A DNA stretch of 32,633 nt from Planctomycetota bacterium (lineage in GTDB: Bacteria; Planctomycetota; Brocadiia; Brocadiales; Subterrananammoxibiaceae). The stretch lies in assembly GCA_016198835.1 (NCBI GenBank), contig JACQHT010000087.1:1-32633 (forward strand), given 5' to 3'. Shown piece by piece: positions 4,824 through 31,410 of this stretch; within the stretch, counting starts at the first letter, position 1; every line of letters begins with the position of its first letter. A program made the translations under genes and the position numbers. Below the pieces are notes generated by a model, which did no database searches, was not told the origin of the DNA, and saw only the letters and a list, made by a program, of their open reading frames with translations.

Positions 4824-4860
4824 AGAGGCTTACCTTTTCAAAAGTTAAGCGTAGAAAATT

Positions 4861-14658: not shown

Positions 14659-15270
14659 CTAAGACTGTTCTTTTAGGACTCGTTCTCGCAACCACTCTGT
14701 GAGGGCTCTCCAGATAAGGAATGCGGTTATTAAACCGACTATAGGCCATACTATAAAGGGTTTCTTACTTGTAGGCTTTCCTTCGTTATGCGTTTCCTCA
14801 ATAGGAGAGTTCGGGGCACCTTCCACGGGTTCCTTCACAATGGCTGAAGAGACTGAAAATGCTCTTATGTATGCAACCAGTTTTTTAATCATTTCATCAT
14901 CAAAGGTGTCACCCCACGCAGGGCACAAGTTCGACTTCTTTACAGCCACAGAGCCGCCGATTATAACCTTTTTAATGTCCGCGTCTTCTAATTTAGACAT
15001 ATACTCTGTATCAGTAAAGTCCCTGGGTCCTGGCTTCACTTCATAAGGGAATGACTTACCGTCGCCCTTCCCTTCTTCTCCATGGCAATGTACACAATGA
15101 TGCCGATACACATGTTTGGCATCAAAACGGATTAATTTTAGCTTATTCGCACGTGGATGTTCCCCATCTTTGACAGCACCAAATAAACCCTGTGAAACAT
15201 TTAGACTGACAGAAAGAATACTAATTCCAATTATCATAGTTCGTTTTAAAAGTGTATATTGTCCTAACAT
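14659..15270 (-). CDS. Membrane-anchored monohaem cytochrome c with Cys at the Met-ligand position
   Basis: The 203-residue protein has a hydrophobic N-terminus (about residues 10-30), one haem motif CVHCH (59-63) followed by GEEGKGDG, and a C-terminal membrane helix (about 172-190). In related domains of this window the distal ligand sits in a MP-W/Y motif. Here the matching place reads NLCPAWGD, with Cys116 instead of Met (codon TGC), which suggests His/Cys ligation as in SoxA, TsdA or DsrJ, or loss of the sixth ligand. AAGGGAA precedes ATG 15270. It lies 24 bases after the tetrahaem gene and probably passes electrons on the outer face of the membrane. Confidence 0.87.
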   Translation of the reverse strand: MLGQYTLLKRTMIIGISILSVSLNVSQGLFGAVKDGEHPRANKLKLIRFDAKHVYRHHCVHCHGEEGKGDGKSFPYEVKPGPRDFTDTEYMSKLEDADIKKVIIGGSVAVKKSNLCPAWGDTFDDEMIKKLVAYIRAFSVSSAIVKEPVEGAPNSPIEETHNEGKPTSKKPFIVWPIVGLITAFLIWRALTEWLRERVLKEQS

Positions 15271-15294: not shown

Positions 15295-16719
15295 TTAACT
15301 GGTTCCTTTATCTGTACAAGACATCAGAAAATGTACTAAATTGGCGATCTCTTCCTCAGTAAGCTTATAACGTGGCTCCGCGGTATCAAGGGCTGCATGC
15401 TGCGGATTTTTTAAGTGCCAATAAACATAATTTGGTTCTAACCTATCGCCCGCTTTAGCAAGATTTGGCCCTATTACACCACCCTCTGGACCTATTGCGT
15501 GGCAGGTATTGCAGCCATAGTCATAAAAAAATGTTTTGCCCGCAGCGGCTTTTTCTTCGTTTACCGCTTCTTCTTTAAAAAGGTCGGTTGGAATTTCTCC
15601 GCTAATAAAATTCTTTTTTATGTAGTCCGTTGCAATCCTTGCCTCTTCATCGGTAAGGCTAAACTTGGGCATTTGTTGAAGTATTGGACGGATGATGTCA
15701 GGGGTCTTCAAGAAATCAACAAGCCAGCTATCCTTAAGCTTGCTACCTATATTAGTTAATTCTGGAGCAAATGTTCCGCCATTCCCACTGATGTTATGGC
15801 ATGTTAAACATCTTATTTCATACACAAGTTTAGGAAAATCCTCTGTGGGTACAGGGTCTCTTACGATTGGAGGAAGAACTTCCTTGATGCCTTCGATATC
15901 ATGACATACCACACATCGGCTCACGGTAATTACTCTTTTTCCATTTTCTATAATTGTAGGGTCGTTAGAATAAGTTATTTCAACTGCAGGGGCTGCCTCT
16001 TCGCCTCCTTCACTCTCTTCTTCCTCTTCTTCATATTCAGGCATAAAATCCTCACTTCTGAGGATGTATTCGATAAGAGCCCTTAACTCTTCATCAGTCA
16101 GCCTGAATTGAGACATCATGGTATCAATAAAATGTTCTCTCGGGTTTTTTATCCAGTAATAAAGCCAATCTCGGTTACTAATCTTTAATTGAACTTTACC
16201 CAAATCAGGAGCAACTGGAACAAATCCCCCAACGCCTTTTTGTGCATGACAGAGACCGCATCGTGCTACTGACCAAACGCCCTTTCCTTTTGTAATAAGT
16301 TTATCCACTACTTCAAACTCTTCATCTGTCAGTTCTGATTCTGGCTTAAGAAGGTCGTCATCCCATTGTAGTTTTGGATATGGTGGATTTTTATCTGCAA
16401 TACTCGCCAAATATGCTATTATGGCTTTTACTTCATCGTCTTCTAACATCAAAAATGGCATTCTGGCGCCTGGGTCATAAACCTTGGTATTCTTAATCCA
16501 ACCAGAAATCCACGAGGCATTCACTTTATGCGTTACGTTTTTGAGGGGTGGGCCATGTTTAACCCGTCTAAACGGATTGTAAAACTTTTCCGTAACTACG
16601 GAAGGGTTGGTTTTTGTTTCTGCATAAGATAGAGTTATGCTGAAACAAACAAATCCTGAGATTATTGCAGTAAATGCAAGAACCAATTTTTTATTCACTT
16701 TAATTGACTTTTTATCCAT
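15295..16719 (-). CDS. Periplasmic tetrahaem cytochrome c with irregular domain build
   Basis: The 474-residue secreted protein (signal peptide about 1-33) has four haem motifs: CGLCH (154-158), CVVCH (269-273), CLTCH (303-307) and CNTCH (403-407). Residues 55-105 look like the second half of a cytochrome c domain (WISGW, GARMP, DDEV) with no haem motif before them. The site at 269 has a first half but no second half before the next motif. Met ligands are likely in domain 1 (MMSQF) and the domain at 303 (QQMPKF). In the last domain the place is Glu448 (TAEPRY) instead of Met. A strongly acidic linker lies at 228-242. GGAAG precedes ATG 16719. It probably carries electrons for the upstream module. 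Confidence 0.87.
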   Translation of the reverse strand: MDKKSIKVNKKLVLAFTAIISGFVCFSITLSYAETKTNPSVVTEKFYNPFRRVKHGPPLKNVTHKVNASWISGWIKNTKVYDPGARMPFLMLEDDEVKAIIAYLASIADKNPPYPKLQWDDDLLKPESELTDEEFEVVDKLITKGKGVWSVARCGLCHAQKGVGGFVPVAPDLGKVQLKISNRDWLYYWIKNPREHFIDTMMSQFRLTDEELRALIEYILRSEDFMPEYEEEEEESEGGEEAAPAVEITYSNDPTIIENGKRVITVSRCVVCHDIEGIKEVLPPIVRDPVPTEDFPKLVYEIRCLTCHNISGNGGTFAPELTNIGSKLKDSWLVDFLKTPDIIRPILQQMPKFSLTDEEARIATDYIKKNFISGEIPTDLFKEEAVNEEKAAAGKTFFYDYGCNTCHAIGPEGGVIGPNLAKAGDRLEPNYVYWHLKNPQHAALDTAEPRYKLTEEEIANLVHFLMSCTDKGTS

Positions 16720-16842: not shown

Positions 16843-19107
16843 CTAAGCCGATGGCTTACGTCTGATCCACCCAACAAGCCACATTTCAGCGGCAGCAGCC
16901 ATTATTATAGAAACTAAAGCATAAAAGTATACACCGCCCCGTGCTGGCGCCTCCGGAAATAAATAATACCAAACAGTAATTGATTTTTTTGAGCCTATAT
17001 CCCCGTTTGAACCATCCCAAATACCAAGTGAAAATAGAGTAAATTTCCCTTGTTCAAATTTAACATCATTGGAATCACCCGTGTTTAATTTCCTCTTCAT
17101 CACAACCTGCCACAAACCTCTCTTGCCATTCCAATATCCACGCCCACTGACATGCTGATTTTCAGGAGGCTGCAGGGTCAAAGGTGCAACAAAGCCTCTC
17201 TCCACGTTCAATTCCTTCACAGCAGCTTCAACATAAGGCTCTTCAACGTTTAGAAGTTCTTGTCTAACACCGGCTTTCCAGAAAGACTTCCAATGCCAAA
17301 TATTTACATTTACCTTTTCTTGACCATGGGCAAGGGTTGGCTTCGGGATGTCACCACCAAGAGCTTTCGTAGGAAATTGTATTGCCACAGCATCTTTGAA
17401 TGTCTCATCTTGCATATTTGTGGAATCATTCCACTCTATATGAAATGCAATCTCATTTCCGTTATGAACAGACCTCACCCTTGCATGATTTATTGATGGG
17501 GTAAATTGCCTTGGAACTGCTATCAACTGACCTGCAAGCTCTAATCCTAAAGGCTCTATTCCTTGCCAGAGAGGGTTATCTGCGTCCATCGGTATTTCTC
17601 CGGTAATAAGCTTTGAGTCGAGCACAACTTGAACACCAGGTTCTACTGGTCTGGATATGGATTTTACAAATGCAGCAAGACTCCACCGTTCATCATCTGT
17701 AAGAATCTCTGCGTAAGGACCCATTGGTGTACCATTAAGCCCCGTTGTGATAGCACGGAATATATCTTTCAGCTCATTTCCGCCTCTATAAGTCCAGCCG
17801 GCTGTTAGGTCCCTTGCCACAAACGGCATGTCCCACTGATTCTTTAATTCAACGGTTATGGGACCATTAGCCCCGCCCTCTTCACCATGACAAAGGAAAC
17901 ATTTCGTACTCTTAAAAAGTTCTCTCCCTTTTTCTTTCATGGCTTCCGTTACAGAAGGCTCTGACGCTGCTATAGTTACAATAGGTTTAGGAACTTCTTC
18001 GGTTTTGAATCTATCGTTGAAACCTTTTATATAGTCCATGACCTTACGACGCTCTTCTTCTGTCAGGACTTCTTCCCAGGAAGGCATTACAGAACCAGGA
18101 AGACCTTTACTTATCGCCCTAAACAGGTCATCATCAGAAGGAAGTGAACCATGAGGTGTAGTACGAATCTTAAACTGACCGGAAGTAAAATCACGCGGTG
18201 TAGGGAACATAATATTATCACCATCCCATCGCACCCCTGGACCATTTCCATCACCATTCAAGCCATGACAGAACCAACACTTTCGTTCATAAATGTCTTT
18301 TCCATCACCTAAAGGCGGTTCTGGATAATGGTCTTTTTCAAGTACATCTGCAGGTCTTTGGGCTGCATTTACGTATGCAAATTGGATAACCTTCCATACA
18401 GTATCATTGTCTAAAGCATCCTTCCACCTCGGCATTACCGAACGATAACCGATTGTACCTTGTGGGAGACCGATACCGCCTTCTGTAATTCTCCAAAAGA
18501 GGTAACGTTCAGCCAATTGGGCAATTGTGCCAGATTCACGAAAATCTATAGGTTTCGGTATCCATGCACGAGCCATCCAACCTTTCCCATCGCCTAAGAA
18601 ACCGTGACAGGGTTGACAAAGCCCTGTGAAAATTTCACCACCCTTGCTAATATTTTCTGGTGTCCACTTAAATGGTTGCTGTAAATCCTTGAAACTGCCA
18701 GGGAGGTCAAAATGAATGCCAGGAGGGTCGCCCGGAGGTACAGTTTTTACAAGAAGCCTTTGATATGTGTAGTAGCCTATTACTAAAGGGAATGCTACTA
18801 CGCTTGCTATCCATATCACATTTTTCCCCGCAGAGGGATTGCCTTCACTGCTGTAAAGATATACAATGGGGTTGAAAACCAATAGCATCCTATCAGTATC
18901 AATCGTAAGGTAAAGGGCTATTGCTATTATTACTATACCCATATACATGAAAATGATACTCGATGGGATAGGTATCGAACCTTTGCCTGTACCGAGGCCT
19001 GTAAAGAAACCTATTCCGAACTTAAAAAGGACGTATGAAATGACCAATATTATTGCAATCCATGCAAGGTCAGCTAAACCTAGGAACGAGTGTTTTCCTT
19101 TTTTCAT
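16843..19107 (-). CDS. Module A: trihaem cytochrome c fused to an EB_dh-type haem-b domain, membrane bound
   Basis: The 754-residue protein has about three N-terminal membrane helices (12-34, 48-69, 96-116). Three cytochrome c domains follow with CQPCH (164-168), CWFCH (277-281) and CFLCH (403-407). Next is an ethylbenzene-dehydrogenase gamma-like domain (about 500-715: VRSVHNGNEIAFHIEW, NIWHWK, GIWDGSNG), and one C-terminal helix (725-745) closes the chain. EB_dh domains normally bind one haem b as gamma subunits of molybdenum enzymes such as nitrite oxidoreductase or selenate reductase, but no molybdenum subunit is present here. The Met ligands appear as VMPRW, VMPSW and PMGPY. It closes the four-gene module A and is a full-length paralogue of the protein at 22545-24842. 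Confidence 0.85.
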   Translation of the reverse strand: MKKGKHSFLGLADLAWIAIILVISYVLFKFGIGFFTGLGTGKGSIPIPSSIIFMYMGIVIIAIALYLTIDTDRMLLVFNPIVYLYSSEGNPSAGKNVIWIASVVAFPLVIGYYTYQRLLVKTVPPGDPPGIHFDLPGSFKDLQQPFKWTPENISKGGEIFTGLCQPCHGFLGDGKGWMARAWIPKPIDFRESGTIAQLAERYLFWRITEGGIGLPQGTIGYRSVMPRWKDALDNDTVWKVIQFAYVNAAQRPADVLEKDHYPEPPLGDGKDIYERKCWFCHGLNGDGNGPGVRWDGDNIMFPTPRDFTSGQFKIRTTPHGSLPSDDDLFRAISKGLPGSVMPSWEEVLTEEERRKVMDYIKGFNDRFKTEEVPKPIVTIAASEPSVTEAMKEKGRELFKSTKCFLCHGEEGGANGPITVELKNQWDMPFVARDLTAGWTYRGGNELKDIFRAITTGLNGTPMGPYAEILTDDERWSLAAFVKSISRPVEPGVQVVLDSKLITGEIPMDADNPLWQGIEPLGLELAGQLIAVPRQFTPSINHARVRSVHNGNEIAFHIEWNDSTNMQDETFKDAVAIQFPTKALGGDIPKPTLAHGQEKVNVNIWHWKSFWKAGVRQELLNVEEPYVEAAVKELNVERGFVAPLTLQPPENQHVSGRGYWNGKRGLWQVVMKRKLNTGDSNDVKFEQGKFTLFSLGIWDGSNGDIGSKKSITVWYYLFPEAPARGGVYFYALVSIIMAAAAEMWLVGWIRRKPSA

Positions 19108-19160
19108 AATTTAAAACCTGCGATAATATCCTCCAAAGTAATATTCGTGAAATTTACATT

Positions 19161-19988
19161 CTATTTAAGTGTCTGCAAGAAGGCGATGAGGCTATAGAGC
19201 TGCCTGAGCGTCAGTGAGTCATGAAATTCAGGCATAATGGACCTACCATCCTCTCCTACATAGCCTTCGCCTTTTACAATAACCTTATTCGGAAATACAA
19301 TGGAATCATAGAAGTATTCTGCATCCTGCATTGCTGCAACTCCGTGAAGGTCCGGCGCACTTTTCTCTGGTTCTTTGTCCTCAAACCCTGGCGCTTTGTG
19401 ACATTGCCAGCATTTCATCTCATTAAAGACGTCAAACCCATCCTCAGGATAGGCTTCCGGCATTAGAAATTCTGCCTCTGCCACTTCGATTGTGGGAACA
19501 AATTTTTTATACTTCTCCTGTGCAGTTGCAAGCTTTTGAATCGCATCCTGGTCAAAATTTCCACCTAAACTGTACAGGTAAGCGGTTACCGCCACAATTT
19601 CATCATCATTTAATGAAGCAGGAGGCCTATTGACAGGCTTCATCTGACCTTTTGGATAGCCCTCAACAACGAATGCATCAGGACTATAAACAGATTCCAT
19701 AAAATACTCTGCAGCCGACATCCCTGGTTTTCGTTGTGAGGCTCTTTCCCCAACACCTATCATATTTGGACAACGTGCCTTTGGGTCCTCTCCCAATGAA
19801 TGACATGTAAGGCACGAATTTTCTCTTTCAAAGATTGACTTACCGGCCTCTGTCAGTCCCTCAACAGTGAGGGTGATGGTTACTGGGCCAGTAGCTCCTT
19901 GTTTTATTTGAGGAATACTGTTTCCGAGATACACAAACCCACCTGCGACAGCAAAGATAAAGATACATAAGCTAAGAAAGTTTTTCAT
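19161..19988 (-). CDS. Module A: membrane-anchored dihaem cytochrome c
   Basis: The 275-residue protein has an N-terminal anchor (residues 3-22) and two haem motifs, CLTCH (59-63) and CWQCH (193-197). Candidate distal ligands are Met115 (GQMKP) and the Met in SIMPEF near residue 252. Its ATG overlaps the CydA-like gene stop by four bases, so the pair is translationally coupled, which suggests a fixed stoichiometry or complex. The paralogue at 24910-25860 has the same plan with an added domain. A role as the electron carrier touching the CydA-like subunit is inferred. Confidence 0.87.
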   Translation of the reverse strand: MKNFLSLCIFIFAVAGGFVYLGNSIPQIKQGATGPVTITLTVEGLTEAGKSIFERENSCLTCHSLGEDPKARCPNMIGVGERASQRKPGMSAAEYFMESVYSPDAFVVEGYPKGQMKPVNRPPASLNDDEIVAVTAYLYSLGGNFDQDAIQKLATAQEKYKKFVPTIEVAEAEFLMPEAYPEDGFDVFNEMKCWQCHKAPGFEDKEPEKSAPDLHGVAAMQDAEYFYDSIVFPNKVIVKGEGYVGEDGRSIMPEFHDSLTLRQLYSLIAFLQTLK

Positions 19989-21724
19989 TCTTTGCGAGTC
20001 CCTCCAAACTGGCTAAGCCAAAATACAAAGGCAATAAATCCAAAAAATATTACCGTGACTATAGATATCACCGTTGTGGCAAAGCCAAGAGTTGGTGTAA
20101 AGGCAGCCTCTGAAGCGTCTTTCATGACTCCGTAAACATGCCATGGTCCCCTGATACCAGAGCGTACAAACCCCATTAGTCCCATTAACAGGGTGAATGT
20201 TATTGCAATTAGAAACAAAATATATTGTGACCTTACAGGCATTTCTCCCCATCTAATACCTCCGAGGGGTTTAGATTTTTTAAACAAAGGTATGTCAATT
20301 CCCATTACACCAATAATACAGCCTATCACTGGAAGTACCTGATAAATGGAGTAGCGAATTGCTATATCCTTTGGTGTTGGTGGAAATGAACTTATGCCAA
20401 AGTAAAGAACTGTAATTGCGGCTCCTGCAAACATAAATATCTGTAGAGCGCCTCCAACGTGTCTCCAGGTTGCGGTAGCAACCTTATTTGCTCTACGATA
20501 TAATACGAAGCTTAGAAACGTTGTAAGAATCACGAGATTTACAGCGGTATTCTTTGCAGGCATTTGCCCAAAGAAATCAAGAAGAGGATGATGTGCTGCG
20601 CCCATTTTACGTGCTTCTTCAATGCTTGCAACCATTGTATGGGGTGTCATCCAGACCGCGATTCCTATAAACACCATGGTAAGCATAAAAATGATAAATT
20701 TCTTATACCTTTCTGCTCCAGGAATCTTGTTCATGCCAGTCCAGAGATAATAGTTTGTACTTATAAAAAGCACGCCGATAAGCACTGCCTGAATTATAAA
20801 TAGCCATGCGAATGAACCGCCCATAAGGATTGTAATAAGGGCAAAGTCATACTTTCGAATCTCAAAAGCAAGGTAATAACCAGCAAATGGCAGTGGAATC
20901 AGTGCAAACGTGGCAATAAAGTTTCCTATATAAGCCATCCAATCATAATGTGCCTTTTCATCAGGTCCCTTTGACCCAAGAAATTTAAAAGCAGAATAAG
21001 CAGCCGCGATTGCGCCACCAAATGCAACATTTGCGATTATACGGTGGACGTTAATAGGCCACCAGAGTGGGTTATGGACAGCGCCCCATAGGCTTGTCAG
21101 CGCATAGGTGTTTTCATCAATACCCCCAGGGCTCATCATGAAGCATACCCATGCGTTTGCAAGAAACATCAGGGCTGTGCCAAAGAGGTTTAAAAATACA
21201 CCTATCGTCACATGACCCCACTTAGTAACCCGAGAATCTTTCATCCTATCCCAGGTGTAATAATAAGCATACAATGTGAAAGATTCACCAAAGAAAAGAA
21301 AGACGTAGACATACATTGTGCCTGAAAATATCTCCATGAGATAGCCTGTAAACTTTGGATACAGCCCTATGAGCATGACTATCAGTATAGCGCCAAAGAT
21401 AGCAGTTATTGAAAAGGCAACCGGAAGTAACTTCGTAAATTCTTTAGAGAGCCTGTCAAATTTTTCATCTCCAGTGCATACGCCAATAATTTCCGTTATA
21501 AGTACAAACATCGGGACCGCTAATACAAATGCCGCAAACATCAGATGTAATTCAGCTATAACCCATATTGCGATACGAGAGCTGATTAACGGAAAATGTC
21601 TATAATCCTTGACCACATCTTTAATGTCCTGGGCAAGTGCTGGACATGCCACATAGAACAATAAAAAAAGCGGTATAATGATAATGAGAAACGATAATTT
21701 TCTTTGAAAACAATCTGGTCTCAT
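19985..21724 (-). CDS. Module A: CydA-like membrane haem protein without CydB
   Basis: The 579-residue protein has about a dozen membrane helices and resembles subunit I of cytochrome bd quinol oxidases. Likely haem ligands are His60 (AELHLMF, matching the b595 His near the start of CydA), His227 (INVHRIIANVAFGG, matching the b558 His) and Met495 (WGEMPVRS). Glu147 in FFGESFTLYAYYY matches the conserved helix-3 acid. The CydA motif GRQPW is degraded to RGPW (525-528), but the following VYGV...A is kept. An extra N-terminal hydrophobic leader ends ALA-Q near 31. No CydB gene is near; the gene is coupled on both sides (ATGA overlaps) to a cupredoxin and a dihaem cytochrome. It may oxidise quinol for these carriers or reduce O2 or NO with them. 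Confidence 0.82.
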   Translation of the reverse strand: MRPDCFQRKLSFLIIIIPLFLLFYVACPALAQDIKDVVKDYRHFPLISSRIAIWVIAELHLMFAAFVLAVPMFVLITEIIGVCTGDEKFDRLSKEFTKLLPVAFSITAIFGAILIVMLIGLYPKFTGYLMEIFSGTMYVYVFLFFGESFTLYAYYYTWDRMKDSRVTKWGHVTIGVFLNLFGTALMFLANAWVCFMMSPGGIDENTYALTSLWGAVHNPLWWPINVHRIIANVAFGGAIAAAYSAFKFLGSKGPDEKAHYDWMAYIGNFIATFALIPLPFAGYYLAFEIRKYDFALITILMGGSFAWLFIIQAVLIGVLFISTNYYLWTGMNKIPGAERYKKFIIFMLTMVFIGIAVWMTPHTMVASIEEARKMGAAHHPLLDFFGQMPAKNTAVNLVILTTFLSFVLYRRANKVATATWRHVGGALQIFMFAGAAITVLYFGISSFPPTPKDIAIRYSIYQVLPVIGCIIGVMGIDIPLFKKSKPLGGIRWGEMPVRSQYILFLIAITFTLLMGLMGFVRSGIRGPWHVYGVMKDASEAAFTPTLGFATTVISIVTVIFFGFIAFVFWLSQFGGTRKE

Positions 21725-22524
21725 TTGTCTGAAATCTCCAATTCAACGGTTAGAACGGCATTTTCTGTTACCTTGACTTCCTTTTCAATAATAACAGGGT
21801 CAGAGAACATAATCTTGTCAATCTTGCCTTCCTTCTCCTTCTTTTCTTTCTCCTTCCAGCCCTCATGCCATGCGGTTAATTTATATGTGCCCGGGGGAAC
21901 ATTCTCAAGCTTGAACTTACCGTCTTTATCGGTTACTGTATAGTATGGATGTTCGACAACATGAACTTCGGCGCTCATCCAGTAATGACCTGCATCGCAT
22001 ACCACATCAACCACCCCGGCTTTTCTCAGTTTTTTTGCTATTTTCTGTCCCTTAACAGGAAAGGCAAGATTATAGTTAGCAGCCCCATACATATGTATAT
22101 TGTGTAGGGTATCATCGCTTGTTGTCATGACGAATTCGGCTCCAACTGGAACTATATAAATATGTGGCTCATATTGGCATTCTACCTGATCCAATGTAAG
22201 AGTGGAAGGTAATTCTGCCATTTTCTTCCCTTCCTGAATATTTGCCAGATATAGGACCGTATTTTTCACACCACCATCGTTTGAGATAATCAATCTCGGC
22301 GATAGTTTCGGTTCCTTACCACAAACTTCTATGTCTTTTTGAATAGGGAAAAAGCTTACTTCAGGGATTGCACCTGCCCATTTAACCGTCCCTTCGATTG
22401 TACCACCACCAGTAACATCTTTTTCTGTGTAAGCCCTTGCAGTAGAATTATAAAACAAAAGACCAAAGACTCCCAAGCAAAGAAATAAGAACGCCCTTAA
22501 TGACAATCTTTCATGGATAAACAT
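21721..22524 (-). CDS. Module A: cupredoxin-like protein with carboxypeptidase-regulatory-like domain (cupredoxin 1)
   Basis: The 267-residue protein has a signal peptide or anchor (about 8-31). A cupredoxin-like part (about 40-190) and a small beta-sandwich (about 193-220 onward: YTVTDKDGKFKLENVPPGTYKL) follow. Candidate type 1 copper ligands are His141 (LHNIH), Cys176, His180 and Met183; the loop is Cys-x3-His-x2-Met, one residue longer than in the other two copies. A lysine/glutamate-rich insertion (224-235) is also unique to this copy. AGGAGGAAAG precedes ATG 22524, and the stop overlaps the CydA-like start. It would be a periplasmic electron carrier or docking protein. Copper binding is inferred from ligand spacing. 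Confidence 0.78.
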   Translation of the reverse strand: MFIHERLSLRAFLFLCLGVFGLLFYNSTARAYTEKDVTGGGTIEGTVKWAGAIPEVSFFPIQKDIEVCGKEPKLSPRLIISNDGGVKNTVLYLANIQEGKKMAELPSTLTLDQVECQYEPHIYIVPVGAEFVMTTSDDTLHNIHMYGAANYNLAFPVKGQKIAKKLRKAGVVDVVCDAGHYWMSAEVHVVEHPYYTVTDKDGKFKLENVPPGTYKLTAWHEGWKEKEKKEKEGKIDKIMFSDPVIIEKEVKVTENAVLTVELEISDK

Positions 22525-22544
22525 AACACTTCTTTCCTCCTATT

Positions 22545-24842
22545 CTAATCATTTACCTTTCCAAAAACATTCTTAACAATAAACAGCCATTCAAGACCAC
22601 CAACCATTCCTACAGCAACAATGCTGTACATATATACAAGAATGTTTGCTGGTGTACTCAGAATTAAATAATACCATGATGAAATAGACATTCTATTCCC
22701 CACCTCTCCATTTGAGCCATCCCATACACTGAATGCAATCGGTATCAACTTCCCTTGCATGAATTGCACGTCCTTATTGTCGGTGGTTACAAGGGGTCTT
22801 TTTATAACAACCCTCCATCTGCCATCATCATAAAAACCGAAACCATGGGTTGCCTGGCTGGCGCCATCCTGAGCTGCAGGTGGTTTGGTAAGACCCTTTG
22901 CGTTAAGCTCCTCTACAGGGGATGCCTTTCCCTCTTCCTGCCAGTCAGCCTTCCATTGCCAGAGGTTTATGGATTTTGAAGCATCTCCCATTATAAAATG
23001 TGGTCTCTCAGGTCCTTCAGAAATTTTCACCGGGAATTTAATAGCAACCGCATCCCGGAGTTTTAGCGCATTTAGTTTATTAAAATCCACCTTGATGAAT
23101 GAATCCGTCTCGCTGTCCCAGGCGGTAGCGTCAGATTCACGATGAGTAACACTTTTTGTTCTATCACCCCACTCAAGAAGAAAAGCTATTTCTTTATCAT
23201 TATAAATAGATTTAACAAAGACATTTGAAACAGAAAAATTTTGCCAACGCGGTCTTATAATAGCCTGCGGAATCAAAGGGACTGCTATGGGGGTAACACT
23301 TTCCCATTGAGGGTCGTCTGGTTTGTCGGGAAGTTCCGACTTTGCAAATTCAGATTCTATAACAACAGAATCAATTGCACTGTTGACAGACAAGCTTGAG
23401 ACATAATGTGCAAGCGCCCACCTTTCTTCCGTTGTAAGTGTATCTATATAGGACGGCATCGGTGTACCGTTCAATCCGGTACTAAAGGTTGCATAAACAT
23501 CCTTTATGTTATTCCCTCTTATGAATTTCCACCCATCAGTAAGATTTGTTGGAAGAATAGATTGTCCCCAATCATCAATATGTGTCCCAGCGGCAGGTCC
23601 ATTTCCCCTTCCATTTTCCCCATGGCATTCGATACATTTCATCTTTACATATAATTCTCTACCTTTTGGTAGGGACTCGGTACCCAATTGTGGTGGAGTT
23701 CCAATCTCTACCTTAACAAGCTCTTCCTCTTTTATAAGTGCAAAATCTTCTGCAAAGGTCTTTACATAAGAGACTAATGATGAACGTTCCTGTTCTCTAA
23801 GCATATCCCAGGCAGCCATAGATGTACCTGGCATACCCCAAGTAATTACTTGAAAGATGTTTTCACCAAGCGGAAGTTCACCTGTACCTGTAGTTCTCAA
23901 CTTGAATAGACCTTTTGTAAAATCCCTTGGCCTGGGATGTAGATAGTCCGCAACCGGTCCATTGCCATCACCCTCAAAGCCATGACAGAAAGCACATCTA
24001 TGTTCATAAATCCCTTTCCCGTCGGTTGGACTGAAGGATGGTGTCAACCTTTCAAATTTTTTCGCCTCTTCACCTGAATGAGCTTCAGGCATTCGGGGGG
24101 ATATACCTGTAATTTCATACAAAGCCGTTATTATCTTCCAGATTTCATCATCAGATAGGTCATCTTTCCATACCGGCATAGCAGAATCCCACGGGGTTGA
24201 TGCAGAGGGTAGCGCTGCATAGCCTTCTTTTACACGCCAAAATACAAAGGCTTCTACAACAGTGGCAATAGTGCCCGGATCAGTAAAGTCAATTGGCTTC
24301 AGGCGTAATCCTCTTGCCAGGGGTCCGTCACCCCTTCCAGCGTCACCATGACACGGTTGGCAATTCTTGTAATAAAGGGTTTTACCTTCCATTAGCGCCT
24401 GTTTTTGCGTCTCTGCGTCTGCTTTCCTGTAAGGGTTTTCTAAATGTTCAAATGCTCCTGGCAATGTAGGGTGCTGAATCCTCAACTCTACAGGGGATGT
24501 TGAACCCGGAGCTACAGCCCCGTATGTTATATACCCTACTATCAAAGGTACGATGACTAAAATTCCTATGAAAAGCCCGTTTCTGATGCTTGATTCGGTT
24601 CCTTGATAAAGGAAACTTAAGAAGTCCTTAAATCTAACACCACTTGATGTTGCATAAAGCAAGCCCGCAAGGACAGCCATAATCATGTACCAGGTGAAGA
24701 GGGTCCTCGGCGTAATCATTAAACCTGGTTTACCAAGCAAAAGCATAAATATTAAGGGAAAGATTACCTTTAACAGGAGCACTACTGCTGCAATTGCTGA
24801 AACAACCCAGATGAACAAATAAGAAATACCTTTTCCCCCCAT
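22545..24842 (-). CDS. Module B: trihaem cytochrome c fused to an EB_dh-type haem-b domain, membrane bound
   Basis: The 765-residue paralogue of the module A protein has the same order: N-terminal helices (about 6-36, 48-64, 88-110), haem motifs CQPCH (161-165), CAFCH (283-287) and CIECH (403-407), an EB_dh-type domain (about 495-730, with NLWQWKADW and SVWDGSNG) and a final helix. It carries an insertion in the EB_dh part (THRESDATAWDSETDSFIK) not seen in copy A. The domain 2 ligand motif is SMAAW rather than MPxW. AAAGGAA precedes ATG 24842. It sits 20 bases before cupredoxin 1 of module A, so the two modules form one continuous gene run. No molybdenum enzyme subunit is nearby. Confidence 0.85.
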   Translation of the reverse strand: MGGKGISYLFIWVVSAIAAVVLLLKVIFPLIFMLLLGKPGLMITPRTLFTWYMIMAVLAGLLYATSSGVRFKDFLSFLYQGTESSIRNGLFIGILVIVPLIVGYITYGAVAPGSTSPVELRIQHPTLPGAFEHLENPYRKADAETQKQALMEGKTLYYKNCQPCHGDAGRGDGPLARGLRLKPIDFTDPGTIATVVEAFVFWRVKEGYAALPSASTPWDSAMPVWKDDLSDDEIWKIITALYEITGISPRMPEAHSGEEAKKFERLTPSFSPTDGKGIYEHRCAFCHGFEGDGNGPVADYLHPRPRDFTKGLFKLRTTGTGELPLGENIFQVITWGMPGTSMAAWDMLREQERSSLVSYVKTFAEDFALIKEEELVKVEIGTPPQLGTESLPKGRELYVKMKCIECHGENGRGNGPAAGTHIDDWGQSILPTNLTDGWKFIRGNNIKDVYATFSTGLNGTPMPSYIDTLTTEERWALAHYVSSLSVNSAIDSVVIESEFAKSELPDKPDDPQWESVTPIAVPLIPQAIIRPRWQNFSVSNVFVKSIYNDKEIAFLLEWGDRTKSVTHRESDATAWDSETDSFIKVDFNKLNALKLRDAVAIKFPVKISEGPERPHFIMGDASKSINLWQWKADWQEEGKASPVEELNAKGLTKPPAAQDGASQATHGFGFYDDGRWRVVIKRPLVTTDNKDVQFMQGKLIPIAFSVWDGSNGEVGNRMSISSWYYLILSTPANILVYMYSIVAVGMVGGLEWLFIVKNVFGKVND

Positions 24843-24861
24843 TACAAAATTCCTTTTACTT

Positions 24862-24910
24862 AACCTCCCCTCAATCCCCTCCTTGCGAAGGAGGGGATAA
24901 AGGGGTGGTT
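24862..24910. repeat. C-rich/G-rich palindromic repeat at a gene junction
   Basis: ATCCCCTCCTT (24874-24884) and AAGGAGGGGAT (24888-24898) pair perfectly around GCG. Outer arms AACCTCCCCT and AGGGGTGGTT pair with one mismatch. The element fills the gap between the dihaem and trihaem genes of module B and touches the stop codon of the dihaem gene. It looks like a dispersed repeat; it could also weaken read-through and set expression ratios. Confidence 0.8.
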
Positions 24911-25860
24911 TACTTAAGGGTTAAGAGATAATTTACGACCCCGTAAAAATCTTTTACACTTAATAATTCGTTGAGGTTGCCCGGCATCATCGAAATCTCT
25001 TGTTGTTTCATATCTTCTATTTCATCCCTGTGAATCGTCACATCCTCAATCACACCACCCTCATCCACTGCCAAAACAATTTCGGACTCATTCTGGTTCT
25101 TTATGATGCCACTGTATGGAATACCATCCGTTGTAATTATATAAACAGTTTCATATCCTTTAACAATTTGAACGCTTGGATTAAGGATAGCTTCCATCAA
25201 ATATTCTGGAGTTTGTATTGCACCAATACTATCAAGGTCGGGTCCAATCTTTGCACCTTTACCTTTTACTACGTGACACTTGGAACAACTTGCCGCGTGA
25301 GTCTCACTGAAAAAGATGTCTTCTCCAACCTTTGCATCTACAACTACCGGGGGTACCCAGGGTTTAACCTTTTTCCTGGAGGCTGTAGGTATTTTGTCTT
25401 TATATTTCGAAACTTCTGCAATATTCGGCTCACCTCCCAAACTCTGTAGATACAGAAGAATTGCGAGGATTTGGTCTTTTTCAAGTATAATAGGTGGCTC
25501 ATAGGCCTTAGGCATGATGTCACCGTAACCCTCGACTATATACGCACTGGGGTCCACCATTGATTCAACAAGGTATTCTGTAGCAGAGGATAACCCTCGC
25601 GCTTTTGCCCTTTCTTCTGCCCTTACGTAAAGGTTTTCCTGGTCAGGGCCTCTTGTTGAACTCCCCTGGTTTCCTATTTTATGACATGTACTGCACTGCC
25701 CATCGCCCCAATAAAGTTTTTCACCGGTTTCAGGGTCTATACCGCCACCAACTTCACCCCCGTCAGTGCCAGATAGTCCACTAACATAAATTGATATATA
25801 AGTGAAAAGCCCAATAATAGCTATGGTAAACCCCACAGCTTTTAAAAAGCTTCCTCTCAT
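24910..25860 (-). CDS. Module B: dihaem cytochrome c with Pirellula/Verrucomicrobium-type haem-binding domain
   Basis: The 316-residue protein has an N-terminal membrane anchor (about 7-27) and haem motifs CSTCH (56-60) and CSKCH (192-196), with Met ligands likely at DIMPKAY and SMMPGNL. Residues about 185-316 match the plan of the small haem-binding domain of Pirellula/Verrucomicrobium type: haem motif, then TPEYLMEAILNPS, a beta region (TTDGIPYSGIIKN) and SMMPGNLNELLS. The module A paralogue lacks the beta insertion. ATG 25860 is chosen because GGAG lies nine bases before it; an in-frame GTG at 25884 reads through a repeat. It sits after the CydA-like 2 gene as in module A. Confidence 0.86.
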   Translation of the reverse strand: MRGSFLKAVGFTIAIIGLFTYISIYVSGLSGTDGGEVGGGIDPETGEKLYWGDGQCSTCHKIGNQGSSTRGPDQENLYVRAEERAKARGLSSATEYLVESMVDPSAYIVEGYGDIMPKAYEPPIILEKDQILAILLYLQSLGGEPNIAEVSKYKDKIPTASRKKVKPWVPPVVVDAKVGEDIFFSETHAASCSKCHVVKGKGAKIGPDLDSIGAIQTPEYLMEAILNPSVQIVKGYETVYIITTDGIPYSGIIKNQNESEIVLAVDEGGVIEDVTIHRDEIEDMKQQEISMMPGNLNELLSVKDFYGVVNYLLTLK

Positions 25861-25879
25861 GTTACGATTCTCCAACTGC

Positions 25880-25894
25880 CCCACCTAAGGCGGG
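25880..25894. repeat. 15-base palindrome copy (imperfect) in the leader of the module B dihaem gene
   Basis: CCCACCTAAGGCGGG resembles the perfect copies at 7970-7984 and 30590-30604, with the same TAA centre as the first. It lies about 12 bases before the ribosome binding site of the dihaem gene. Confidence 0.5.
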
Positions 25895-25946
25895 TAAAAT
25901 TTCATCGGGTAGTTCAAGAACAGTCTCTGCTTTCGCTTTTATTAAC

Positions 25947-27908
25947 TTAAGCAATCACTTCTTCGATCAGTTCTGCTTTTTCAACGGCTTTCTTCTCTCC
26001 TAAACTGGCTAACCAGAAAACAAAGGTAACAAGCCCGAGGAAAAGAAGTACAGTTATTCCTACAACCTCTCCCATATACGCATAACTTGGCGTAAAAGCC
26101 CCGTCCGAGGTATCACGCAAGACACCGTAAATGTGCCAGTCCAGGCGCAGTCCTGAACGAACGAATCCCATTAAGCCCATCATTGTTACAATTGTGACGC
26201 ATAGTAAAATTAATGCGTATTGCGACCTTACAGACATCCTACCCCATGCAACGCCCCCAACACTCTGTGCCCTCGAAAAGACTGCCACATCAATCATCGT
26301 ATTTGTTATGAGGCAGGCAATAACTATCAATACCTGTGATACGGAGAGATACCTGAGCAGGAGGTTAGCTTTCCCCATAAGTTCAAAACCATAAATACCC
26401 ATATAAATTACGGATATAGCTATGGTAAAGCCAAAAAGGAGGTACTGAGCAAATACGCCCCTGTTGAAAAATGTTAAAATAGTTGATGCTATAACAATGC
26501 CTCCCTGGATTCCTAAAAGAATTACCAACGGCCAAACATATGGACGGATAGCATCTTCCAGCACCTTTACATTGGGCAAGCCTATTGCATACCACGCCAA
26601 CAAGGCAACAGAGGCAGCAGCGCCTATAATAAGTGCAATCTTTACTCCTTTACCCTGTTTGGAAAATAGGACCGTTTGTCCCTTGTTCGCACGCCTGTAA
26701 AGAATGAAGGAAAAGAACGTAACTAAAATAGTTAAATTTACAGCAGCATTCTTTGCAGCCATTACCCCAAAGAATTTTGAAAAGGGATGATACTGTTCAC
26801 CAATGACAGACCGTTCCTCACCGCTAAGTGGAAGGTTGTGCGGCGTCAACCAAACTGCTATGGAAAAGAATAGCATAACAATTAAATATTTTATCCACCA
26901 GGCATATCGCTCTGCACCTTTAATCCTATCCATACCAGCCCACAAGTAATAATTAGCGCCTATAAACAGCATACCAATAAGCACTGCTTGAATAATGAAT
27001 GCCCACGAGAATGCCCCGCCCATCGAAATGTTACCCATTACGGCGCTTGAACTGTAAATCTCTCTTCCAAGCCAGTACCCTGCAAATGGTAGTGGAATAA
27101 GCGCTGCTAAACCTATAAAATTTCCTGTATAACCCATCCAGTCGTAATGAGCCTTTTCCTCATCTACTGTTGCACCAAGGAATTTAATGGCTGCGTAGGC
27201 TCCTACCACAAATCCTCCAAAGGCAACGTTTGCAATCAAACGATGAATATTTATAGGATTCCAAAGAGGATTAGCAATAGCGTCCCACAAACTTAGAAGC
27301 TGTCCTGTTTCCTTTTCTATTCCTGCGGGGCTCATCATGAATGTTGTCCATGAATTAGCAATAATCATAAGCGCAGTACCAAAGAGGTTCAGTGATAATC
27401 CTAATAGTAGATGCGCCCATTTTTTGTGCAATAACCTGTCCCAGGAATAATAGTAAGCATAAAGGCTAAATGCCTCACCGAAGAAAAGAAAGGCATAAAT
27501 ATAGAAGGTGGTGTGAAAAATATTTGCCATGTAGTGGGTAAATCCGGGGTAAAGGCCAATTAGAAAGAAGGCTAAAACCCCGCCAAGGGCTGCTGTTGTA
27601 GCAAAGGATGCAGAAAGTAGCTTTGTAAGTTCATGGGCAAGTTTGTTATAGCGCTCATCCTTGGTTCTTACCCCCACCAACTCGATAATTACCGCAAACA
27701 TAGGGACGCCAAGAACGAATGCGGCAAACATTAAATGAAGTTCGGCAACAATCCATACCGCAACACGAGCACTGCCTCCAAAAAGGAACGGCCTGTATTG
27801 AACTACTGCCTCTTCGACTTCTTCCTGAGCAAAGGCTGTAAAAGGCAATACAATCGCAAGTATGGCAGAAAAAATCAAAACTGCCAATATTACTCTTTGT
27901 CTGGTCAT
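25947..27908 (-). CDS. Module B: CydA-like membrane haem protein without CydB, long form
   Basis: The 653-residue paralogue of the module A CydA-like protein has an N-terminal leader ending AFA-Q near 28, His58 (AELHLMF), Glu145 (FFGEAFSLYAYYY), His222 (INIHRLIANVAFGG) and Met558 (WGRMSVRS), all matching the positions seen in copy A. The GRQPW motif is RLDW here (588-591). It is about 70 residues longer because of extra hydrophobic segments between about 430 and 550 and a charged C-terminal tail (EKAELIEEV). AAGGGGC precedes ATG 27908. No CydB is present. Conservation of the haem ligands but loss of GRQPW in both copies points to a shared non-standard function. Confidence 0.83.
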   Translation of the reverse strand: MTRQRVILAVLIFSAILAIVLPFTAFAQEEVEEAVVQYRPFLFGGSARVAVWIVAELHLMFAAFVLGVPMFAVIIELVGVRTKDERYNKLAHELTKLLSASFATTAALGGVLAFFLIGLYPGFTHYMANIFHTTFYIYAFLFFGEAFSLYAYYYSWDRLLHKKWAHLLLGLSLNLFGTALMIIANSWTTFMMSPAGIEKETGQLLSLWDAIANPLWNPINIHRLIANVAFGGFVVGAYAAIKFLGATVDEEKAHYDWMGYTGNFIGLAALIPLPFAGYWLGREIYSSSAVMGNISMGGAFSWAFIIQAVLIGMLFIGANYYLWAGMDRIKGAERYAWWIKYLIVMLFFSIAVWLTPHNLPLSGEERSVIGEQYHPFSKFFGVMAAKNAAVNLTILVTFFSFILYRRANKGQTVLFSKQGKGVKIALIIGAAASVALLAWYAIGLPNVKVLEDAIRPYVWPLVILLGIQGGIVIASTILTFFNRGVFAQYLLFGFTIAISVIYMGIYGFELMGKANLLLRYLSVSQVLIVIACLITNTMIDVAVFSRAQSVGGVAWGRMSVRSQYALILLCVTIVTMMGLMGFVRSGLRLDWHIYGVLRDTSDGAFTPSYAYMGEVVGITVLLFLGLVTFVFWLASLGEKKAVEKAELIEEVIA

Positions 27909-28021
27909 TAATAGCCCCTTATTTCACGAACTATTTACTCAGATATTTTTTATGGTACGCTATTAGCTGAAAGCTTAAAGAGAAGAGGTACTCCGTCCAA
28001 TGGTACGACCGTTTGTAATTG
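27909..28021. other. Gap between cupredoxin 2 and the module B CydA-like gene
   Basis: This is a 113-base gap with no coding sequence. On the minus strand a TTGGAC is followed 17 bases later by TAAGCT, a poor promoter match. GGTAC-type short repeats occur, but no clear element was recognised. Confidence 0.4.
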
Positions 28022-28768
28022 TTACTTTCCCTTTGGTTTTAATTGAAAATCTACTTTTACTTCCTTACCTGCTTCTATAGTAACATCCTGCACCTGTTTT
28101 CCAAGTTTCTCCTGCCAAGCCTGAAGTTTATATGTACCCGCAGGCACGTTATCTATTTTGAAACTCCCATTATCGTCTGTCATTACAAAGTAAGGATTAT
28201 CTTTGATAACTATAAATGCGCTCATCCATTTATGGAGGTCGCATTTTATTGGCACAAGTTCTGGAAATTCAAATTTCTTAGGTAGCTTTCCACCTGTTGA
28301 AACACCTTCATTAAAGGGTGAATTCTTAATTGCATAAGAATGGACATTATGCAGGACTTTGTCGCTATTGAGTATGTCCACCGTGGTTCCAGCCGAGATG
28401 GCAAGTACGTGTGGTATATATGTGCATTCTTTTTGGTCAAGCGCAGGATTAGAGCTCGGCGGGATAAATTTTTTCCCCTTCTCAATACCTTCAATGGATA
28501 CAATAACGTTTTTTATTCCCTTAGTATCTTTTGAAATAATTAATTCTTCAGAAAACATTTCATGATGTCCACATGTCTCCAAATCCTTGTCTACTTTTAA
28601 CAACTTCGGTGCAGGCATATCCCCCTCGAACGTAACAGTTCCAGTTATAGTGCCACCTTGGGCAACATCCATTTCTGTGTAGCCATAAGATTTTACCAGT
28701 GTGCCTGAACTGCCAATAACACCCAATGTCAATCCCATTCCTAACGCAATACCATACAGCCCTTTCAT
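28022..28768 (-). CDS. Module B: cupredoxin-like protein with carboxypeptidase-regulatory-like domain (cupredoxin 2)
   Basis: The 248-residue protein has a hydrophobic leader (about 4-28), a cupredoxin-like part (about 38-188) and a C-terminal beta-sandwich (about 192-245, with VMTDDNGSFKIDNVPAGTYKL). Candidate copper ligands are His140 (VLHNVH), Cys176, His179 and Met182; the loop CDLHKWM is the amicyanin-like Cys-x2-His-x2-Met type. ATG 28768 is chosen because AGGAGG lies directly before it; an in-frame TTG at 28783 falls just before that site. It stands between the octahaem gene and the CydA-like 2 gene, so it could carry electrons between them. It is closest in sequence to cupredoxin 3. 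Confidence 0.8.
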   Translation of the reverse strand: MKGLYGIALGMGLTLGVIGSSGTLVKSYGYTEMDVAQGGTITGTVTFEGDMPAPKLLKVDKDLETCGHHEMFSEELIISKDTKGIKNVIVSIEGIEKGKKFIPPSSNPALDQKECTYIPHVLAISAGTTVDILNSDKVLHNVHSYAIKNSPFNEGVSTGGKLPKKFEFPELVPIKCDLHKWMSAFIVIKDNPYFVMTDDNGSFKIDNVPAGTYKLQAWQEKLGKQVQDVTIEAGKEVKVDFQLKPKGK

Positions 28769-28799
28769 TCTAATCCTCCTCAAACTTGCAAAAAAACGA

Positions 28800-28828
28800 G
28801 TAGGTGGGGCATAGAATACCCCACCTAC
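28800..28828. repeat. Perfect 10-bp hairpin between the octahaem gene and cupredoxin 2
   Basis: GTAGGTGGGG (28800-28809) pairs with CCCCACCTAC (28819-28828) around a nine-base loop. It lies 13 bases after the stop of the octahaem gene and about 32 bases before the cupredoxin 2 start. No T-run follows on the minus strand. It may be a dispersed repeat, an mRNA stabiliser, or a partial terminator separating HAO from module B. Confidence 0.8.
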
Positions 28829-28841
28829 CCATTAAAACTCT

Positions 28842-30575
28842 TTATTTGCCTTTCTTCAAAGCCTTTACTTCAGCAGATAGCTGTTCTATCTTAGTTTTAA
28901 GGAATTGCACATCTTCCGGGGTTAAACCGCCGGGAACTTGCACTCCACCAACTTCAGCAAGCGTCTTTTCGAGCGCCGCTTCTCTGCGAAGTCTTGCTGC
29001 CTCCGATTGGACTACCCCCAGCTCATGAAGCATCGGAGCCTGACCCCACCACCAGGAGAGGTCTTGTTGGGCGTGGGCGGTGCCTTTGTATCCTTGCAGT
29101 TTATAAAAGAACCACATCTTTGCATACGCATTCTCGATGGGTAACGGGTTGCCTTTGCCTTGATAGAATAGTCCATAAACACCAAGGATTGGACCTATAA
29201 TTGGCAGCTTACCCCTTGTTGTCTTAAGCGCATTAAAGACTGGCTCACCAAGGAAATCTGGACCAAGAATGTCTGTAATCTTATCGCCCAACGGGAAGAT
29301 GTCCCTATCAGCAATAGATGGATAATACATACCATCTGCGGCAAGGTCGTCAAGAATCTTTTGTGCCTGGTCTGTAAGCTTAAATGCCTGCAACATAAAA
29401 TCATCTATGCATTCACGATAGGCTTCGACAAATCGTGGACCATGGCATTTTGAACAAAGTTCATTCCACTTTGCCCTCTTTTCATTATTTGCATCGGAAT
29501 AAATATCTATCTTGTTTGCGATGATTTTTATGCCGTAGGGATAATCCTTTAGAGAGGACTCATACTCAATATTTGATGGTGGAACAGTACCCATCCTCCA
29601 GATTCCCTTTGAGACAAAATTGTGTGTGAATCTTCCGCCACCCTGATACATGTGGCACAGCTGGCAGGTAGGGGCACGATAATCCTTGCCAACCTCAACC
29701 TGAGCCAGCGGTTTTGTGAAGTCAAAGTGTTCTTCCTGCATTTCATAGATTTTGCCATGTTTTGACTCAAAATACGACTCTGAATCTGGATGGTCAGGAC
29801 CCATGTGACAGGAAACACATGCTTCTGATTTCCTTGCCTCTACTGAAGAAAACGTATGTCTTGTGTGACAACCATCACACTTTTCCGCAACAGCATGACA
29901 CATGTCACAACCAACCATACCTGCTATGTGTCCCTTCTGTGCCATATCAGCGTACCATGGTACTATCACGTTTGCTTCCCATGATTGGACGTGGTTAGGA
30001 CGACCGTGTTTGCTTTCCTGCATGAACTCTTCAACCTGCTGGGTATGACATTCGCCACAGACGTTTGCAGACGGCATCCTGATGCTTTTTTTCTCTTTGT
30101 CCACATGGCAGTCAAAGCAATGTACCTGATTAATTTCTCTGCCAAGAGACTTTTCTATCAGTCTCGTCCTGCTGGCAAAGAATGGAGACTTCTTTGGATT
30201 GTAATGCGCGGATTCCTGCCAATCAACAACTGTACCTACATTTATCCCTTCGTGGCACAGGACACACAAATCCTTTCTTTCCTTCTCAATAAATATTGTG
30301 TGGTCCAATTTATCGGAAGGTACGTAGTGTCTGTCTGGACTCCAATACATGTGGAGCTTCGTTGGCTTAAAAAAGTCCTTAAAAGGTCCTGAGCCTTCAT
30401 TTAACCCAACGTGTTTTTCAAAAACTGCCCTATACCAATCGGGCTTTCCATCGTAGATATTAAGCGCTTTTTGCTCTGCTGGAGCTTCCTGCGCACGAAC
30501 AGGTAATGCCAGGCATGCCGCAGTCAGAAAGACAAAAGCGCTGAAGATGAGTTTCGTTCCTTTAATCCGATTCAT
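28842..30575 (-). CDS. Octahaem cytochrome c of the hydroxylamine oxidoreductase (HAO) family
   Basis: The 577-residue secreted protein (signal peptide ending VRA-Q, residue 28) has eight haem motifs at residues 104, 153, 173, 223, 233, 253, 304 and 374. The spacing, CDGCHTRHTF, CVSCHMGPDHP and the following SKHG are typical of HAO-family proteins. The fourth motif (223-227) should be the catalytic haem. Tyr496 in the YKG segment is a candidate for the cross-linking Tyr that makes P460, which would favour oxidation of hydroxylamine or hydrazine over reduction; I cannot verify the alignment. The C-terminus lacks a membrane anchor and ends in a short coiled coil (551-575). ATG 30575 follows AGGAGG; an upstream in-frame start reads through a repeat. 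Confidence 0.9.
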   Translation of the reverse strand: MNRIKGTKLIFSAFVFLTAACLALPVRAQEAPAEQKALNIYDGKPDWYRAVFEKHVGLNEGSGPFKDFFKPTKLHMYWSPDRHYVPSDKLDHTIFIEKERKDLCVLCHEGINVGTVVDWQESAHYNPKKSPFFASRTRLIEKSLGREINQVHCFDCHVDKEKKSIRMPSANVCGECHTQQVEEFMQESKHGRPNHVQSWEANVIVPWYADMAQKGHIAGMVGCDMCHAVAEKCDGCHTRHTFSSVEARKSEACVSCHMGPDHPDSESYFESKHGKIYEMQEEHFDFTKPLAQVEVGKDYRAPTCQLCHMYQGGGRFTHNFVSKGIWRMGTVPPSNIEYESSLKDYPYGIKIIANKIDIYSDANNEKRAKWNELCSKCHGPRFVEAYRECIDDFMLQAFKLTDQAQKILDDLAADGMYYPSIADRDIFPLGDKITDILGPDFLGEPVFNALKTTRGKLPIIGPILGVYGLFYQGKGNPLPIENAYAKMWFFYKLQGYKGTAHAQQDLSWWWGQAPMLHELGVVQSEAARLRREAALEKTLAEVGGVQVPGGLTPEDVQFLKTKIEQLSAEVKALKKGK

Positions 30576-30589
30576 TTTATGCCTCCTGG

Positions 30590-30604
30590 TCCGCCTCGGG
30601 CGGA
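30590..30604. repeat. 15-base palindrome in the leader of the octahaem gene
   Basis: TCCGCC-TCG-GGCGGA is a perfect six-base-pair hairpin directly upstream of the AGGAGG site used by the octahaem gene. It belongs with the copies at 7970-7984 and 25880-25894. Confidence 0.75.
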
Positions 30605-30627
30605 TTAAAAAGTGTTCACGTAAAGGA

Positions 30628-31398: not shown

Positions 31399-31410
31399 AA
31401 TACCCGCCAC

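Follow-up and report, generated by a model that had tools for sequence, protein, structure and literature searches.

The question raised by contig JACQHT010000087.1 of a Planctomycetota metagenome-assembled genome (MAG; assembly GCA_016198835.1) is what two successive sets of four genes on its minus strand represent, how the sets are related and what they may do. Each set, within positions 16843-28783 of the full 32,633-nt stretch (contig C42 of the MAG, hereafter the window), comprises genes for a cupredoxin, a CydA-like membrane protein, a dihaem cytochrome c and a fusion of a trihaem cytochrome c with an EB_dh domain. We conclude that the region is a module of a known, uncharacterised kind, which is present twice and in an unusual variant: both clades of CydA-like proteins occur in one operon, the EB_dh proteins are fused, the nxr genes lie on another contig, and orthologues of the genes of the nitrite-reducing complex HAOr (Kustc0457/0458) are found upstream.

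All eight open reading frames (ORFs) are uninterrupted and lie on the minus strand in the same order in both sets, as an earlier note made from the sequence alone had described. The lengths it gave for the CydA-like proteins (653 aa for CydA1 of module 1 and 579 aa for CydA2 of module 2) and for the fusions (765 aa for EBdh1 and 754 aa for EBdh2) were confirmed, with haem motif counts of 2/2 in the dihaem and 3/3 in the trihaem proteins. Pfam matches in the modules were to Cyt_bd_oxida_I (PF01654), cytochrome c and EB_dh. CydA1 and CydA2 share 52% identity, EBdh1 and EBdh2 35% over their length (E 2e-146), the two dihaem cytochromes 30% (E 1e-24), and cupredoxins 1 and 2 41% (E 2e-51). The ATGA overlaps proposed by the note were found in module 2 only (4 nt each, between cup2 and CydA2 and between CydA2 and its dihaem gene), while the genes of module 1 are separated by 113, 62 and 67 nt; the modules themselves are 20 nt apart. 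The block also does not end where it had been placed, at 28768, since cup1 may start with a TTG at 28783 and the operon runs on downstream through the tetrahaem c, monohaem c, Usp, CBS and radical-SAM genes.

Comparison with other genomes revealed that the order cupredoxin-CydA-dihaem-EB_dh is conserved across phyla. All 58 genome loci that extend 4 kb or more downstream from the CydA gene contain the dihaem-EB_dh gene, and 57 of them the dihaem c gene, so that the view of each set as a conserved unit was borne out. The Brocadiaceae loci (f4) and most Scalinduaceae loci (f5) examined have one module only, with its monohaem and dihaem-EB_dh parts encoded separately; these two family names, and Bathyanammoxibiaceae (f3) below, were inferred from gene content. 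In the Brocadiaceae loci L137 and L146 the module is followed by genes for a tetrahaem c, a monohaem c and Usp and then by nxrC, nxrB, torD, one more gene and nxrA, and CydA1 shares 64-68% identity with the proteins of the nxr clusters and of Scalinduaceae. This order and composition show that the module is of the bd-like/alternative-NxrC kind reported from nxr clusters. Kuenenia, Nitrospira and Nitrospina were described in 2013 (PMC3578206) as having nxr clusters with a conserved bd-like protein, alternative NxrC, c-type cytochromes and cupredoxins, and in 2019 every Nitrospira genome was found to contain the alt_NxrC/bd-like set twice (PMC6606698). The N. moscoviensis equivalents rank among its 40 most strongly transcribed genes and have been proposed to serve reverse electron flow (PMC6606698). 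Thus, the remark that no named complex has this composition holds in that no function has been demonstrated, but the combination and its doubling had both been described. A kinship with the CydA-like proteins of Nitrospira is likely, as suspected, by the published descriptions only (PMC3578206, PMC6606698) and not by Nitrospira sequence.

With the nxr-cluster set (Kuenenia kustd1699-1713; Nitrospina gracilis; Nitrospira alt_NxrC_2 with bd-like_3/bd-like_4) the window shares a bd-like protein without Q-loop, an alternative NxrC, mono- and dihaem cytochromes c and cupredoxins; it shares the doubling with Nitrospira and the gene order with the Brocadiaceae loci. It differs from that set in that its array holds two modules whose CydA-like proteins come from different deep clades, in the fusion of the monohaem and dihaem-EB_dh genes, and in being adjoined by HAOr and not by NXR. 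No nxr genes were found on the window contig, and a cupredoxin-nxrC-nxrB-torD cluster lies on contig C230; the window was therefore rejected as an NXR operon. The nxr genes are likewise apart from the module in Scalinduaceae (L165, L169 and L170) and in the family designated f2 (L164). Module and NXR are separable, and linkage to nxr is not a constant feature.

The AlphaFold2 (AF2) model of CydA1 (predicted local distance difference test, pLDDT, 86) matched cytochrome bd CydA in Foldseek (E 1.5e-7). Equivalents of E. coli His19, His186 and Glu107 (H58, H222 and E145) are practically invariant in 137 relatives; His222 was assigned by HMMER and hhalign, whereas MAFFT put His186 on another, less conserved His. 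Met383 is invariant and, aligned by eye, stands at the expected place of Met393, which it may replace. The position of Glu99 is Tyr in 137/137 relatives, no Glu is aligned with Glu445 among them, Lys252 and Glu257 of the Q-loop fall in gap columns in all 137, both window copies included, and no member of the CydB family was found among the operon proteins scanned. Compared with canonical CydAB (5doq, 6rko, 7oy2), the window proteins thus keep the CydA fold and the three equivalents named above, and differ in these four points and in their extra helices. A canonical bd quinol oxidase was therefore rejected, and the link to the quinone pool suggested by the earlier note is without sequence support. 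Locus L133 (8993-, genome G060) encodes a diverged CydA-like protein, with Gln at the Glu107 equivalent, beside genes for a FixO-like cytochrome and an EB_dh protein.

EBdh1 consists of a monohaem part with N-terminal transmembrane (TM) helices, a Kustc0457-like dihaem part, an NxrC-like domain and a C-terminal TM helix. The dihaem part in the middle of the fusion shares 47% identity with the Kustc0457 orthologue of the window, and the C-terminal domain is homologous to NxrC. The Met...Lys arrangement, the axial haem b ligand pair of EbdC and true NxrC, is absent: EBdh1 has Lys...Met and EBdh2 Gln...Lys, and the arrangement is also missing in nearly all module relatives, whereas the NxrC proteins compared (8 rows) retain it. 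The cupredoxins gave no copper Pfam match; their fold, modelled by AF2 with pLDDT 90, is that of a cupredoxin and matched NirK, amicyanin and plastocyanin in Foldseek, and the His/Cys/His/Met type 1 copper ligands are invariant in a 28-row alignment. Taken together, the sequences fit a membrane haem protein that would exchange electrons with periplasmic copper and haem carriers.

The identical gene order and strand of the two sets, and the existence of a tandem of two clade I modules in f2 genomes (L126 and L127), could suggest that one module was simply duplicated in tandem, recently and within this lineage, and that the copies did not separate in function. The data make this highly improbable. 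A tree of 77 CydA-like proteins is deeply split into clade I (25 rows, including CydA1) and clade II (52 rows, SH-aLRT support 100), which contains CydA2, and an insert of 62-67 residues is found in 25/25 clade I rows, CydA1 included, and in 0/52 clade II rows. Placing CydA1 and CydA2 as sisters costs 97 log units and was rejected by the approximately unbiased (AU) test (p = 5e-7), as was grouping CydA2 with the second copies of f2 and G061 (104 log units, p 4e-5); a sister relation of EBdh1 and EBdh2 is disfavoured (p 0.028), and identities between the sets are only 30-53%. The branch of CydA2 is long, with p 0.43 between a place inside clade II and one on the branch leading to it. The note's view of an old duplication with two intact-looking copies is therefore upheld, but its term "tandem duplication" is misleading for CydA-like proteins of two such clades.

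One gene of each clade was found in the same locus in 13 of the 80 loci of one genome scan (Alphaproteobacteria, TA06, Myxococcota and Nitrospinota), and co-location of the clades also occurs in further Nitrospinota-related genomes beyond these 80. Both CydA-like proteins of the f2 tandem belong to clade I, and this tandem arose independently of the window pair. In the single-module loci of Brocadiaceae and most Scalinduaceae the monohaem part is closer to EBdh1 (303 versus 120 bits) and the dihaem-EB_dh part to EBdh2 (472 versus 418 bits; tree support 100), and in the f2 and G061 tandems the first EB_dh protein pairs with EBdh1 and the second with EBdh2. Judged by these similarity scores and a single quick tree, the most economical reading is that the tandem array would be ancestral in the order and that the single module would have arisen when the block from one EB_dh gene to the other was deleted; the alternative is an insertion in the window lineage. 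Four loci of Scalinduaceae and f2 (L134, L136, L140 and L141), all apart from nxr, hold an extra clade II CydA that forms one protein of 844-880 aa with its dihaem cytochrome.

The octahaem and dihaem genes upstream of module 1 (28842-31410) match the two subunits of KsHAOr (Kustc0457/0458; PDB 6H5L, which we take to be the Kustc0458/0457 complex), an identity that the earlier note had overlooked. Their probable starts are ATG 30575 and ATG 31398, respectively, each after AGGAGG. A Trp of the octahaem protein (LSWWWGQ) is aligned with the cross-linking Tyr467 of N. europaea HAO (1fgj), and Trp in place of this Tyr is expected for a reductive HAO (PMC12758564). The Kustc0457/0458 complex reduces nitrite to NO (PMC12485887). 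By sequence, the two window genes encode the HAOr subunits, a putative nitrite reductase. Co-transcription with the modules is doubtful because a strong terminator-like hairpin (28795-28833) lies between HAOr and cupredoxin 1, which weakens the idea of one transcript for all. Unlike in the window, the KsHAOr pair of the other Brocadiales loci compared is not beside a bd-like module, and no HAO-like gene was found near the module in the 80 scanned loci or in those Brocadiales loci. In f2 and Scalinduaceae (L126, L127, L130, L132, L142 and L145), the place of HAOr upstream of the module is taken by a gene for an octahaem cytochrome c of about 940-970 aa, which is not HAO-like.

As to function, we tentatively favour, with a confidence just short of even, two paralogous membrane complexes of the bd-like/alternative-NxrC type that would serve nitrite-linked electron exchange between soluble carriers and the membrane. 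The sequences establish the make-up of the modules, their conservation and homologies, the retained ligands and the two-clade history; how the products assemble, which haems they bind, which way electrons flow and whether a quinone reacts are inferred as follows. Each complex would be built around a CydA-like, bd-type membrane subunit with two or three b-type haems. Its partners, the cupredoxin, the anchored dihaem c and the trihaem-c/NxrC-like fusion, would serve it from the periplasmic or anammoxosome side. The membrane subunit would exchange electrons with soluble carriers such as those of NXR and HAOr, and the purpose would most likely be an exchange of nitrite-derived electrons with the membrane by reverse transport toward the quinone pool via a non-canonical site. 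Two features favour this explanation over an O2 or NO reductase: in Brocadiaceae, which are anaerobes, the module is part of the nxr operon, and every CydA-like gene is accompanied by a complete partner set. Several observations weigh against it. With the Q-loop residues missing in all relatives, the proteins have no canonical quinol site, and a quinone role would need a non-canonical one. In Bathyanammoxibiaceae, NxrA was found at E<=1e-60 in 7/9 relatives and a CydA-like match in 0/9, so the module is not required by NXR. Because the Met...Lys pair is missing, the NxrC-like domain may not carry haem b, and a haem b in EB_dh is not to be assumed. Outside anammox, most holders of the module come from groups in which nitrite oxidation is not known and of which many are aerobic, and for these O2 reduction fits at least as well.

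The main rival, an O2 or NO reductase, has its own case, which we regard as rather unlikely here: CydA1 and CydA2 would form one CydAA' hetero-oligomer of the OR-N kind, a bd-type O2 or NO reductase that oxidises cytochrome c or cupredoxin and scavenges oxygen or NO in anammox. Consistent with this are the loss of the quinol loop, the gain of periplasmic c-haem and copper donors, the retention of His19, His186 and Glu107, and the sharing of a locus by one protein per clade in Alphaproteobacteria, TA06, Myxococcota and Nitrospinota; in a passage of PMC10839748 that cites Murali 2021, OR-N pairs are proposed as CydAA' with a cytochrome c donor. The window resembles these putative O2 reductases (PMC10839748, PMC12342949) in its two CydA-like paralogues together, the lack of a quinol site and the periplasmic c-type donors, a likeness by description and not by placement in the OR-N tree. 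It is unlike them in the partner set that accompanies each CydA-like gene; together with the pairing of two clade I proteins in both f2 genomes, this fits separate complexes better. The Tyr in place of Glu99 and the lack of a Glu at Glu445 also argue against such a reductase. The Nitrospira candidates are OR-N1 and a NIDE0901-like OR-N2, apparently not bd-like_3/4 beside the alternative NxrC (PMC6606698, PMC12342949). Moreover, the organism also has a cbb3-like CcoN homologue, and O2 removal in Scalindua has been attributed to cbb3 and flavodiiron proteins (PMC13253579). A dedicated electron supply for HAOr, from the membrane through the trihaem-EB_dh protein, whose dihaem part would mimic Kustc0457, to the reduction of nitrite to NO, appears improbable: the HAOr pair lies immediately upstream on the same strand, and the resemblances of the dihaem part to the window Kustc0457 orthologue and of cupredoxin 3 to cupredoxin 1 agree with it, but the hairpin separates HAOr from module 1, HAO-like neighbours are lacking in the loci compared, and the Kustc0457-like domain is part of the module also where HAOr is not nearby.

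In anammox, the electron acceptor of NXR-C and the electron source of the NO-forming nitrite reductase are open questions; electrons of NXR-C must reach an unidentified binding partner, and a coupling to NO-generating enzymes has been speculated (PMC8387239). It is conceivable, and in our opinion unlikely, that the array serves a deep anammox family as a nitrite-side electron hub, in which two bd-like complexes of different ancient types, uncoupled from the NXR genes and beside HAOr, would link NO-forming nitrite reduction, nitrite oxidation and the membrane. If so, it would be the missing membrane partner sought by structural work on NXR and HAOr. The module, still uncharacterised, is conserved and reaches high transcript levels in Nitrospira, and it bears on how electrons move in the globally important anammox bacteria. 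What makes this locus interesting is that two ancient types are paired, that nxr lies elsewhere and that HAOr is the neighbour: it presents the module in both types, untied from nxr, with an HAOr-partner-like domain and radical-SAM/Usp companions, each of which offers an experimental handle.

The MAG comprises 1,610,718 bases in 249 contigs, is 77% complete and is the only member of its family among the genomes compared. It is considered anammox-like because of a hydrazine dehydrogenase (HDH; 1239 bits against a curated cut-off of 900) and the cupredoxin-nxrC-nxrB-torD contig C230, whose NxrB shares 80% identity with one from Brocadiaceae. Neither hydrazine synthase alpha nor NxrA was found in the MAG, at whose completeness occasional loss is expected; a family search located the former in genomes from each of the order's other four families. 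Five further octahaem genes of the HAO family lie on contigs C117 (L159), C224, C66, C115 and C223, one of them a clear HDH.

On the minus strand, the features of the window follow each other as cupredoxin 3, dihaem c, octahaem HAO-like, module 1, module 2, accessory genes and an NfnAB-like oxidoreductase.

Table 1. Coordinates of the features of the array and its neighbours in the window
Feature	Position	Strand	Evidence
Cupredoxin 3, first gene of HAOr unit	31583..32347	-	56% identity to cupredoxin 1; Cu ligand residues His/Cys/His/Met aligned
Dihaem cytochrome c, Kustc0457 orthologue (HAOr partner)	30628..31410	-	PDB 6h5l_B, 356 bits, E 1e-105
Octahaem HAO-like protein, Kustc0458 orthologue (putative nitrite-reducing HAOr)	28842..30647	-	PDB 6h5l_A, 802 bits; 8 CXXCH
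Strong intrinsic-terminator-like hairpin, 18 bp stem and U tract	28795..28833	-	-29.1 kcal/mol, z -7.6
Module 1 cupredoxin (cupredoxin 1, cup1)	28022..28783	-	Start ATG 28768 or TTG 28783
Module 1 CydA-like membrane protein (CydA1), 653 aa, clade I with two-helix insert	25947..27908	-	Pfam PF01654; tree; insert; AF2/Foldseek
Module 1 dihaem c, membrane-anchored	24910..25884	-	Haem motifs, Pfam
Module 1 trihaem c-EB_dh fusion (EBdh1), 765 aa	22545..24842	-	Pfam, pairwise comparison
Module 2 cupredoxin (cupredoxin 2, cup2)	21721..22524	-	Match to cupredoxin 1; Cu ligands aligned
Module 2 CydA-like membrane protein (CydA2), 579 aa, no insert	19985..21724	-	Pfam; groups with clade II or the branch leading to clade II
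Module 2 dihaem c, membrane-anchored	19161..19988	-	Haem motifs, Pfam, match to module 1 dihaem c
Module 2 trihaem c-EB_dh fusion (EBdh2), 754 aa	16843..19107	-	Pfam; 6h5l_B 167 bits; 7b04_C 75 bits
Tetrahaem cytochrome c, module companion in Brocadiales	15295..16719	-	419-478 bits in Brocadiaceae, Scalinduaceae and f2 loci
Monohaem cytochrome c, two TM helices, module companion	14659..15270	-	Haem motif; Brocadiales loci
Double Usp-domain protein, module companion across phyla (elsewhere fused to PCP_red repeats)	13633..14655	-	Domain search; loci comparison
CBS-pair protein	13193..13636	-	Domain search
Radical SAM/SPASM protein with C-terminal PCP_red domain, conserved beside module	11924..13189	-	Nearest NirJ2/AhbD, under their cut-offs

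Of the 47 loci with 8.5 kb or more of downstream sequence, 30, spread across phyla, have both the radical-SAM and the Usp gene, and the Usp companion is fused to 3-4 PCP_red domains in other genomes. A haem-modifying or maturation role of this pair for the CydA-like complex would be a testable idea. Beyond them, at 9521-11836, NfnA- and NfnB-like subunits (ferredoxin-NADP reductase and glutamate-synthase-like) are fused in one ORF of 771 aa. Judged from the translations, positions 1591-5730 encode a coiled-coil, porin-like protein and, after it, the substrate-binding, ATPase and permease components of what resembles a Zn/Mn ABC importer, and at 6543-7949 an FHA domain is apparently fused to a membrane-anchored trypsin-like protease domain.

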